A stretch of DNA of 22,157 nucleotides from positions 1 to 22,157 of the IMG/VR virus record IMGVR_UViG_3300030118_001962, one strand, 5' to 3'. Under the pieces are notes generated by a model that saw nothing but the letters and a program-made list of their open reading frames with translations, searched no databases and was not told where the DNA came from. The translations under genes were made by a program, and so were the position numbers. This document shows positions 5,979 to 22,157 of this stretch, piece by piece (the first letter of the stretch is position 1; each line of letters starts with the position of its first letter). The DNA comes from a virus.

Positions 5979-6014
5979 GGGGGTGTTTCCTAGATTGGAT
6001 GCACCTCTTTTTTT
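5979..6014 (+). terminator. Rho-independent terminator
   Basis: GGGGTG (5980-5985) pairs with CACCTC (6002-6007), with one G-T pair, across a 16-nt loop, followed by seven T (6008-6014). It closes the two-gene rightward unit. The stem is modest but the T-tract is clean. Confidence 0.6.
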
Positions 6015-13687: not shown

Positions 13688-13729
13688 GGGACAGGTTTAT
13701 TTAATCCTATAAGCCTGTCCCTTTTATTT
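13688..13729 (+). terminator. Strong Rho-independent terminator closing the accessory block
   Basis: A 13-bp stem starts with GGGACAGG (13688-13695)/CCTGTCCC (13714-13721) and continues through one T-G pair and TTAT/ATAA, with an 8-nt loop. A T-rich tract TTTTATTT follows. Confidence 0.85.
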
Positions 13730-19710: not shown

Positions 19711-20184
19711 ATGGATACTCACATTATTTCTGGTAAGGCTTACTGGGCAAGCGTTATTTCCCCTAATACAACTTACGAACCTGTATGGCAAGTTGATGTT
19801 TGTCTGGACGACGATAGTAAAAATCTGGTTGAAAGTCTTGGTCTTAATGTTCAAAACAAAGACGATGACAGAGGTGACTTTATTAAAATAAAACGTAAGG
19901 TGAACAAGCGTGATGGTTCACAACGTACTGCTCCTGTTGTTAAAGATTCCGAGAACAACAACTGGGATGACAGACTTATCGGAAATGGTAGTATGGTTAA
20001 CGTCAAGTTTTCTACTTACGATTGGGAATACAATAAGAAGAAAGGTGTAGCCACTGATCTTATTGCTATTCAGGTAGTTGACTTAGTTCCTTATGGTGGA
20101 AGTGGTTCAGAGTTTGAACCTGTTAAAGGTGGCTTTGTAGTTGGTGGTAGTGAGTCTGCTCAAGAACAAGAATCTCCTTTCTAG
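19711..20184 (+). CDS. Single-stranded DNA-binding protein-like (157 aa)
   Basis: The 157-residue protein begins MDTHIISGKAYWASVISPNT and has strand-rich sequences typical of an OB fold (YEPVWQVDVCLD, DDRGDFIKIKRKVNK, SMVNVKFSTYDWEY and a VATDLIAIQVVDLVPY). Its C-terminus ends Ser-Pro-Phe after an acidic, glycine-rich stretch that includes SESAQEQE. Acidic tails ending in Phe are the partner-binding signature of bacterial SSB and T7 gp2.5. The overall look is closer to phage gp2.5/DUF2815-type proteins than to bacterial SSB. It would coat single-stranded DNA at the fork and recruit the helicase and polymerase. It has its own promoter, fitting a need for large amounts. Confidence 0.7.
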   Translation: MDTHIISGKAYWASVISPNTTYEPVWQVDVCLDDDSKNLVESLGLNVQNKDDDRGDFIKIKRKVNKRDGSQRTAPVVKDSENNNWDDRLIGNGSMVNVKFSTYDWEYNKKKGVATDLIAIQVVDLVPYGGSGSEFEPVKGGFVVGGSESAQEQESPF

Positions 20185-20190
20185 AGTAGA

Positions 20191-20259
20191 CCACAATTAG
20201 GGGTTGCCTATCTGGGTGAATTGTGGCAACTGAGTTAGTAGCGCGGGAGGGAGACTAAC
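20191..20259 (+). promoter_or_regulatory. Structured RNA leader upstream of gmd (pseudoknot-capable, wcaG-like candidate)
   Basis: Between the SSB-like gene and gmd lie three sets of complementary segments. CCACAATT (20191-20198) pairs with AATTGTGG (20219-20226); GTTGCC (20203-20208) pairs with GGCAAC (20225-20230); GTTAGT (20234-20239) pairs with ACTAAC (20254-20259). The first two helices are interleaved (A1-B1-A2-B2), so they can form a pseudoknot or two alternative folds sharing GG at 20225-20226. The third is a separate hairpin with a G-rich loop. No T-run follows, so it is not a terminator. The wcaG RNA motif is known upstream of exopolysaccharide genes in cyanophages and marine metagenomes, and the position suits it. 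Identity is not proven by sequence inspection. Confidence 0.6.
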
Positions 20260-20277
20260 ACTTTCAAGGAAATATTT

Positions 20278-21375
20278 ATGTCAAAACGTGCGTTCATTAC
20301 AGGCATTACTGGACAAGATGGTTCTTACCTGGCTGAACTACTTTTATCAAAAAATTATCATGTGCATGGTTTAATTAGACGTAGTTCAACACCTAATACA
20401 AAAAACATAGAACATATTCTTAATAATCCTAATGTAACTATTCACTTAGGGGATATGACAGACAGCGCTAGTTTAAATAAAATAGTAAATAATATTAAAC
20501 CTAATGAAGTTTATAACTTGGCTGCACAAAGCCATGTTAAAGTATCTTTTGACACTCCTGTATGCACTGGAGATATTAACGCCATTGGTTCAATGCGTTT
20601 GCTTGAGGCGTGTAGAAATATAAAGGATTGTCCTATACCCAAATTTTATCAAGCATCTTCTAGTGAATTGTTTGGCAAGATACAAGAACCAATTCAAAAT
20701 GAAACAACTCCTATGTATCCTCGTTCACCATATGGGGTAGCAAAATACTACGCATACTGGGCGGTGAAAAATTATCGTGAAGCATACAATATGTTTGCTT
20801 GTAATGGAATATTATTTAACCATGAAAGTCCAAGGCGAGGAGAGGAGTTTGTTACCAGAAAAGTAACTAAGTATGTGGCTAATTGGGATATAATTTCTGA
20901 GCCGCTTGAGTTAGGAAATCTTTCCAGCTTGAGAGATTGGGGACATGCTAAAGACTATGTTAATGGAATGTGGCTTATGCTACAAGCATCTAAACCAGAT
21001 GACTATGTTCTTTCAACAGGAGAAAAACATAGTGTTAAAGAATTAGTAGAACTTTGTTTTAAAATTAGACACAACAAAACTATACTATGGGAAGGTGAAG
21101 GTATAGAACAAAAAGGATATATTAATTATTTTACAACTAAGGCTAACGAAAAAATGAAAAGGCGACTGGTTGTCGTAGTTAATCCTGACTTTTACAGACC
21201 CTCTGAGGTAGACGTTTTATGTGGTAATTCTGCTAAAGCTGAAAAAGAATTAAATTGGAAACGTGAATATACTTTTGACAGGTTGATAAAAGAAATGTTA
21301 TTGTCTGATCAACCAGAAAAATATTGGTATAAAAATGGAGGTGAATTACCTGATGGTTACTACACAGTATCATAA
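20278..21375 (+). CDS. gmd: GDP-mannose 4,6-dehydratase
   Basis: The 365-residue enzyme converts GDP-mannose to GDP-4-keto-6-deoxy-mannose, using bound NADP. It is a short-chain dehydrogenase/reductase: the nucleotide-binding motif is GITGQDGSYLAE (G9, G12, G15) and RRSSTPNT fits the GMD NADP-binding region. Catalytic residues appear at SSSELFG (S128, E130) and YPRSPYGVAK (Y152, K156). GMD-specific stretches follow: LFNHESPRRGEEFVTRK, LRDWGHAKDYV and FYRPSEVDVLCG near the C-terminus. Length and order fit bacterial GMD. AAGGA lies 7 nt before the ATG. The product feeds GDP-fucose, GDP-rhamnose, GDP-perosamine or GDP-colitose pathways; the next gene points to the last. The gene overlaps that neighbour by 23 nt. 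Confidence 0.95.
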   Translation: MSKRAFITGITGQDGSYLAELLLSKNYHVHGLIRRSSTPNTKNIEHILNNPNVTIHLGDMTDSASLNKIVNNIKPNEVYNLAAQSHVKVSFDTPVCTGDINAIGSMRLLEACRNIKDCPIPKFYQASSSELFGKIQEPIQNETTPMYPRSPYGVAKYYAYWAVKNYREAYNMFACNGILFNHESPRRGEEFVTRKVTKYVANWDIISEPLELGNLSSLRDWGHAKDYVNGMWLMLQASKPDDYVLSTGEKHSVKELVELCFKIRHNKTILWEGEGIEQKGYINYFTTKANEKMKRRLVVVVNPDFYRPSEVDVLCGNSAKAEKELNWKREYTFDRLIKEMLLSDQPEKYWYKNGGELPDGYYTVS

Positions 21376-22157
21376 AATTAACTGGCCTTTAGCCCATGAT
21401 ACATGGGACAACAAGGAGCGAGATGCAATGCATGAGGTTATCGCTTCTGGTAAGTTTACCTTTGGAGAAAAAGTAAAAAAGTTTGAAGATGAGTTTTGTG
21501 ATCACTTTGGATTTCCATATGCTGTTCAAGTCAATAGTGGTGGTAGTGCTAATCTATTAATGGTGGCGGCTGCTGTTGAAAGAGGATGGATATCTAAAGG
21601 AGATAAAGTTATTGTACCTGCTATTGGCTGGAGTACATCTTACTTTCCATTTATTCAGTATGGTATTGATTTAATTTTTGTAGACGTTGATAAAGATACA
21701 TGGAATATTGATGTCAGTCAAATTGAGGATAATATTAAAGAGGACGTAAGAGGCGTTCTTGCTATTAATATTTTAGGCAATCCTTGTAACTACGAAGTAA
21801 TTAATTCTATCTGTAATAACTATGACTTGGTATTGTTTGAAGATAACTGCGAGTCTATGGGAGCAAAGCAAGGAGATACTAATTGTGGGGGATTTGGTGA
21901 CATAGGCACGTTCAGTACATTTTTTAGCCACCATATACAAACAATGGAAGGCGGTATGGTCGTTTGTAATGATCCTGAAACATACAATGTTTTGCTAAGT
22001 TTAAGATCACATGGCTGGACAAGAGGCACAAAATACTTTAAGGATAATCCTTTTGAGTTTGTCACTTTAGGATACAATGTGCGACCAGGAGAGTTGAATG
22101 GTGCGTTAGGTTCTGTCCAGCTAAAAAAGCTGGAGAATATGAACAATCAAAGAATTA
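21353..22157 (+). CDS. DegT-fold sugar 3-dehydratase, ColD-like (C-terminus cut by window edge)
   Basis: The ATG at 21353 overlaps gmd by 23 nt, and GGAGG lies 11 nt upstream; 268 residues are present before the edge. The beginning is a DegT/DnrJ/EryC1/StrS fold: WPLAHDTWDNKERDAMHEVI, ASGKFTFGEKVKKFEDEF and VNSGGSANLL, then VIVPAIGWSTSYFP and LFEDNCESMGAKQG, whose Asp should contact the cofactor ring nitrogen. At the position of the Schiff-base lysine the sequence is FFSHHIQTMEGGM, with H193 replacing lysine. This His is the hallmark of PMP-dependent 3-dehydratases (ColD, RfbH/E1), which remove the C3 hydroxyl of a 4-keto sugar. Since gmd makes the ColD substrate, GDP-4-keto-6-deoxymannose, ColD is the favoured call. 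An ordinary aminotransferase such as perosamine synthase is less likely. Confidence 0.82.
   Translation, partial: MVTTQYHKINWPLAHDTWDNKERDAMHEVIASGKFTFGEKVKKFEDEFCDHFGFPYAVQVNSGGSANLLMVAAAVERGWISKGDKVIVPAIGWSTSYFPFIQYGIDLIFVDVDKDTWNIDVSQIEDNIKEDVRGVLAINILGNPCNYEVINSICNNYDLVLFEDNCESMGAKQGDTNCGGFGDIGTFSTFFSHHIQTMEGGMVVCNDPETYNVLLSLRSHGWTRGTKYFKDNPFEFVTLGYNVRPGELNGALGSVQLKKLENMNNQRI

Follow-up and report, generated by a model that had tools for sequence, protein, structure and literature searches.

What is the structured RNA that lies between a phage single-stranded-DNA-binding protein (SSB) gene and gmd, and to which of its two neighbors does it belong? The locus is near the end of a 22,157-base virus fragment, and the whole of that stretch is referred to here as the window. 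The minus strand of the window carries terminase and portal genes. The plus strand encodes ThyX, a T7-like primase-helicase, a family A DNA polymerase, a DUF5843 protein, the gp2.5-like SSB, Gmd and a DegT-type aminotransferase. Relatives of this SSB in pelagiphages are annotated as ssDNA-binding proteins. The original prediction for the intergenic stretch was an RNA with two interleaved helices, A and B, that form an H-type pseudoknot or mutually exclusive folds, followed by a third hairpin, C. That RNA was proposed to resemble the wcaG motif and to act as a switch for a sugar operon. The features discussed below are listed in Table 1.

Table 1. Coordinates of the genes, the conserved RNA and the helix A arms around the ssb–gmd junction of the window
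Feature	Position	Strand	Evidence
SSB gene (gp2.5-like single-stranded-DNA-binding protein, 157 aa), precedes the RNA	19711..20184	+	PHROG 112 Gp2.5-like ssDNA binding protein, E 3.5e-11
Arm A1, CCACAATT, outside the conserved element	20191..20198	+	8/8 pairs only in window/L002, 4–6/8 in other relatives
Complete conserved two-hairpin RNA	20195..20261	+	Covariance model R2, 51.2 bits, E 1.1e-8 over 624 kb; sole match in window
Unpaired GGG immediately 5′ of P1, conserved	20200..20202	+	Column counts: first two G present in 56/56 rows
P1 5′ strand, GTTGCC (originally arm B1)	20203..20208	+	Covariation
Arm A2, AATTGTGG, not conserved	20219..20226	+	Same pair counts as arm A1
P1 3′ strand, GGCAAC (originally arm B2)	20225..20230	+	Covariation
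P2 5′ strand, GTTAGT (originally the third hairpin)	20234..20239	+	Covariation
P2 apical loop, AGCGCGGGAGGGAG; family pattern ~GYGNGGRRNGGGAC, two G invariant	20240..20253	+	Column counts
P2 3′ strand, ACTAAC	20254..20259	+	Covariation
gmd (GDP-mannose 4,6-dehydratase), next gene in window	20278..21375	+	PF16363, E 4e-132

Covariation and strand

Folding the flagged stretch as a single sequence gave no signal (z = −0.15). Since this was uninformative, the decision rested on comparison. Relatives came from an SSB search of viral contigs (74 loci) and a search with an SSB alignment (80 loci), with some contigs found by both. Directly after the SSB stop codon, most relatives have a recognizable order of unpaired GGG, stem P1 (~6 bp), short linker and stem P2 (~6–8 bp, with a G-rich loop of 13–18 nt), although the stem sequences themselves are wholly different. 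For example, P2 is GTTAGT/ACTAAC in the window, TGACAG/CTGTCA in L015, TAACAG/CTGTTA in L035, CAATGG/CCATTG in L204, GTTGGC/GCCAAC in L054 and GATAGC/GCTATC in L250. The covariance model of the family has two hairpins and a length of 67.

What is the evidence that these stems are conserved as structure? First, in an alignment of 44 diverse sequences that was fitted to the covariance model, a procedure that favors the model, 96.5% of pair cells hold standard pairs and both sides have changed in 12 of the 13 pairs. Double-change cells number 181 in this alignment and 52 ± 8 in shuffles, and pairing falls to 22%–56% when the partner strand is slid out of register. Second, the alignment of E/F-type sequences has 95.3% standard pair cells and 36 double-change cells, as against 8.7 in shuffles. 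Third, an independent scan of all column pairs, using columns anchored by hand, ranks the pairs of P1 and P2 at the top and reveals no further helix. Relatedness was only partly removed in the covariation controls; it is an unlikely explanation for the signal in these alignments because the effect is large and the stems are many and different. The counts omit the MAFFT alignments A2, A4 and A5, which misplace P1, and the alignments of groups C and D, where P1 has long inserts, were inspected by eye only.

Covariance-model searches lead to the same site. Model R1 was trained only on 15 E/F-type sequences, from clades other than that of the window; in an unfiltered search at E ≤ 10, 14 of its 17 matches, including the best 11, fall at this site, both in the window's group and in others. 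The 20 training sequences of model R2 included close relatives of the window; this model gave 53 matches in 88 loci, all of them at the 3′ site of ssb.

The non-Watson-Crick pairs indicate the strand. Counted as RNA, the stems contain 37 G·U pairs and no A·C pairs. A G·U pair here would be A·C on the opposite strand, and the structure is therefore selected as coding-strand RNA. On this comparative evidence, the two-hairpin element acts as RNA of the strand that encodes SSB.

Helix A and the proposed pseudoknot

The three helices are all present in the window as first described, with 8/8 pairs for A (CCACAATT/AATTGTGG) and 6/6 each for B and C, and helices A and B are indeed interleaved, sharing bases 20225–20226. 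Their history in the relatives differs. Helices B and C, which correspond to P1 and P2, are upheld by compensatory changes across divergent phages, the covariation that had been suggested as a check; helix A is lost: it is perfect only in the window and the near-identical L002, and a further 15 close relatives retain 4–6 of its 8 pairs. Because helix A is not conserved, a pseudoknot or switch made from A and B is unsupported as a conserved feature, and the pair scan, with P1 and P2 alone, agrees.

Could the A–B pseudoknot nonetheless be what matters in this virus, whether it arose by chance or in one lineage? The arms are perfect in the window, and interleaved helices of 8 and 6 bp appeared in 0 of 2,000 dinucleotide shuffles of the 69 nt in a post hoc test (a perfect 8-bp helix appeared in 19 of 2,000). 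The predicted minimum-energy fold of the window RNA includes helix A (−19.6 kcal/mol, versus −11.8 for P1 and P2 alone), and helix A may thus compete with P1 in this one virus. However, helix A is broken in every other relative of the same group, and this reading of the element is very improbable. Additional pseudoknots were considered and dropped, such as pairing of GTCCCT with AGGGAC in group B; they are absent from other groups and from the pair scan.

The RNA and its neighboring genes

In the covariance-model search, the RNA occurs once per genome and always downstream of a gp2.5-like SSB gene. None of 32 whole records has a convincing second copy; weak matches in L240 and L310 lie within coding sequence and were judged to be chance. 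The distance between the start of P1 and the SSB stop codon is 18.5 ± 3.5 nt. The distance to the start of the next gene is 29 ± 15 nt, with starts chosen automatically, such that individual values may be off. Pattern scans that took no account of SSB gave the same picture: every two-hairpin match sits 58–67 nt 3′ of an ssb stop codon, and two earlier scans agree. The remaining exact pattern matches are in coding sequence, have no hairpins and are likely due to chance.

The genes that follow the RNA are far less constant. The next gene is gmd in some clades; elsewhere it encodes a winged-helix protein, a DUF3310 protein, an FkbM methyltransferase, a PD-(D/E)XK-like protein or an unknown small protein. 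Moreover, the two-hairpin RNA is absent from all 28 gmd loci taken from other phages. The RNA thus belongs with ssb and not with a sugar operon, because the downstream genes vary and it is missing beside the gmd genes examined in other phages. The original prediction was right that a structured RNA, in the form of conserved P1 and P2, lies between the ssb-like gene and gmd; a role for it in the sugar operon is not supported, in view of the unrelated next genes, the other gmd loci and a spacing that is fixed to ssb and variable downstream. That there is a structured-RNA family and that it is linked to ssb is almost certain from sequence comparison.

The same gene content bears on whether the RNA is a switch that senses a metabolite or controls translation of the downstream gene, as originally proposed, or a self-cleaving ribozyme. 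In favor are the conserved unpaired nucleotides and a location behind ssb and ahead of the next start codon. Against this, the downstream genes share no pathway, P2 is clear of the start region in most members, the spacing varies, and Rfam 15 gave no riboswitch or ribozyme match in the window or in seven relatives. Such a switch or ribozyme is highly unlikely.

How widespread is the RNA? All known carriers are uncultured virus fragments from a large aquatic group. No isolated phage with the RNA was found, including isolates with similar SSBs; it is absent from the checked isolates HTVC115P, HTVC103P, HTVC104P and CRP-7, from the record ctwe8250, and from five SSB-like loci of bacterial assemblies. 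In the SSB tree, deep splits have RNA-bearing branches on either side, and at least seven changes are needed to explain the distribution of the RNA. Some SSB relatives that lack the RNA have a plain or terminator-like hairpin at the same site, and others have no element there, so the RNA is replaceable.

The loci L225, L232, L233, L239, L243, L254, L262, L125 and L126 (the last two being HTVC103P and HTVC104P) lack the RNA. In this set, a single GC-rich hairpin, often terminator-like, apparently replaces it after ssb. P2 itself was considered as an intrinsic terminator and rejected, as a steady T run after P2 was not found in all groups.

Known RNA families and comparable systems

The wcaG RNAs are marine and cyanophage elements that typically lie ahead of exopolysaccharide genes (PMC2864571), a context that made wcaG a sensible lead. 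The Rfam 15 model does not bear it out: wcaG has no match up to E 5 in the window, up to E 10 in a permissive search of the 241 nt from 20100 to 20340, or up to E 3 in seven relatives. The expected association with exopolysaccharide genes, or with high-light genes, also fails: gmd follows the RNA in one group, and unrelated genes follow it elsewhere. The manA RNA model (RF01745) likewise has no match in the window, the 241-nt stretch or the seven relatives. Both wcaG (RF01761) and manA are, like the present RNA, structured RNAs from marine viruses. Neither model matches it, and its place after ssb does not depend on which gene comes next. No Rfam 15 family scored above its gathering threshold in the window or the seven relatives; the weak matches below threshold, to DUF2815, Noro_CRE and sn2903, were judged to be chance. 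A T-box-like reading of a GGGTGG loop was set aside because the loop is not universal and an Rfam match is absent. A literature search found no earlier description of the two-hairpin RNA. Judged from these sequence comparisons, it is best read as a new phage RNA family of ~67 nt, predicted to lie in the 3′ untranslated region of the SSB message.

Three known systems are similar in function or layout. First, the translational operator of T4 and RB69 gene 32 is a folded RNA on a phage SSB message through which SSB controls its own synthesis (PMC535899). It is, however, a pseudoknot in the 5′ leader with UUAAA repeats, whereas the present RNA consists of two simple hairpins downstream of ssb. Second, HK022 putRNA is a cis-acting RNA of ~70 nt with two stem-loops that works without a protein (PMC9378689). 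The present RNA, at 67 nt, resembles putL and putR as described, in size and hairpin number; the put sites lie near the early promoters of lambdoid phages, and the present RNA lies after ssb in a run of genes on the same strand. Third, the L17 downstream element (RF01708) lies downstream of one fixed protein gene, on which it is proposed to exert feedback (PMC2864571). The present RNA is also a structured element behind one fixed protein gene, but the L17 element belongs to a bacterial ribosomal-protein operon, and RF01708 has no match in the window. All three are functional look-alikes, and none is a demonstrated relative.

Possible functions

What might the RNA do? Given a fixed site, a structure selected on the coding strand and unpaired G residues that never vary, we favor, tentatively and with somewhat less than even confidence, an element in the downstream part of the ssb message that is bound by a protein and controls the stability or output of the transcript. 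The ribosome would finish ssb, and the RNA would then fold ~18 nt past the stop codon. The fixed, unpaired, G-rich parts could be bound by SSB itself or by a host RNA-binding or decay factor, and the bound protein would determine how stable the ssb transcript is, how it is processed or how much it yields. An alternative effect would be to shield ssb from the exchangeable genes that follow the RNA. Against the favored reading, the fixed place after ssb could simply reflect the edge of an operon and not regulation of ssb, and the RNA is replaceable in relatives. A more specific version of the favored reading is that the G-rich RNA is bound by SSB, or by a partner dedicated to this task, so that the supply of SSB is coupled to the amount of ssDNA. 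This would be a new class of feedback, with the RNA behind the gene where the T4 gene 32 operator lies ahead of it. Such feedback is rather unlikely on the present sequence evidence.

The main alternative is a put-like antitermination or anti-pausing RNA, with hairpins that would bind the host RNA polymerase and aid transcription of later genes. HK022 putRNA has a similar size, has two stem-loops and needs no protein (PMC9378689), and a strong terminator-like hairpin occupies the same site in some relatives. A T7-type RNA polymerase is unmatched in 19 of 20 RNA-bearing records, so the host polymerase is probably used. However, put adjoins early promoters, whereas the present RNA appears to lie inside an operon, and a simple finder located only two intrinsic terminators in the following kilobases of 15 RNA-bearing loci, many of the records being fragments. 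By analogy with HK022, a put-like function is conceivable but unlikely.

It is also quite unlikely, from the sequence features, that the 3′ region of ssb yields a small RNA whose G-rich P2 loop would target host or phage messages in trans. The strong conservation of the unpaired loop, the compact pair of hairpins and the single copy per genome would suit such an RNA. Most members, however, have no terminator after P2, the next start codon is 15–50 nt away in most, and a loop that pairs with targets would not be expected to hold a fixed purine pattern across diverse phages.

In a large group of uncultured aquatic phages, this well-supported family, absent from Rfam 15, goes one-to-one with a core replication gene. 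A 67-nt object with clear covarying pairs makes compensatory-mutation, probing and protein-binding tests straightforward. Should the RNA control the supply of SSB, phages would have a second RNA-based answer to a classic problem, independent of the first.

Variation at and around the element

Some loci depart from the common layout 3′ of the SSB stop codon. In L041–L048, an inner hairpin (GTAAGG/CCTTAC) lies within P1, and in group C (L033–L040, L145 and L155), P1 has long inserts that bear a stem of their own. L258 has a differing arrangement, GTCTAGC...GCTAGAC around a G-rich stretch, which may be a rearranged or decayed form of the two-hairpin RNA.

The position immediately behind the RNA is a recurrent site of cargo insertion in L002–L014, L034, L038, L145, L155 and L224. 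The cargo, which comprises gmd, a 77-aa protein and an FkbM methyltransferase, lies between ssb and a winged-helix/endonuclease I block. In the window (20278–22156), gmd is followed by a gene for a DegT/DnrJ/EryC1-type aminotransferase that is truncated by the window end; this pair would suit GDP-perosamine synthesis. Elsewhere in the window, the plus-strand early region contains a strong hairpin with a T run behind it (13689–13720), resembling an intrinsic terminator, and the stretch that separates the divergent gene blocks has two more such hairpins, near 5979 and 6619.
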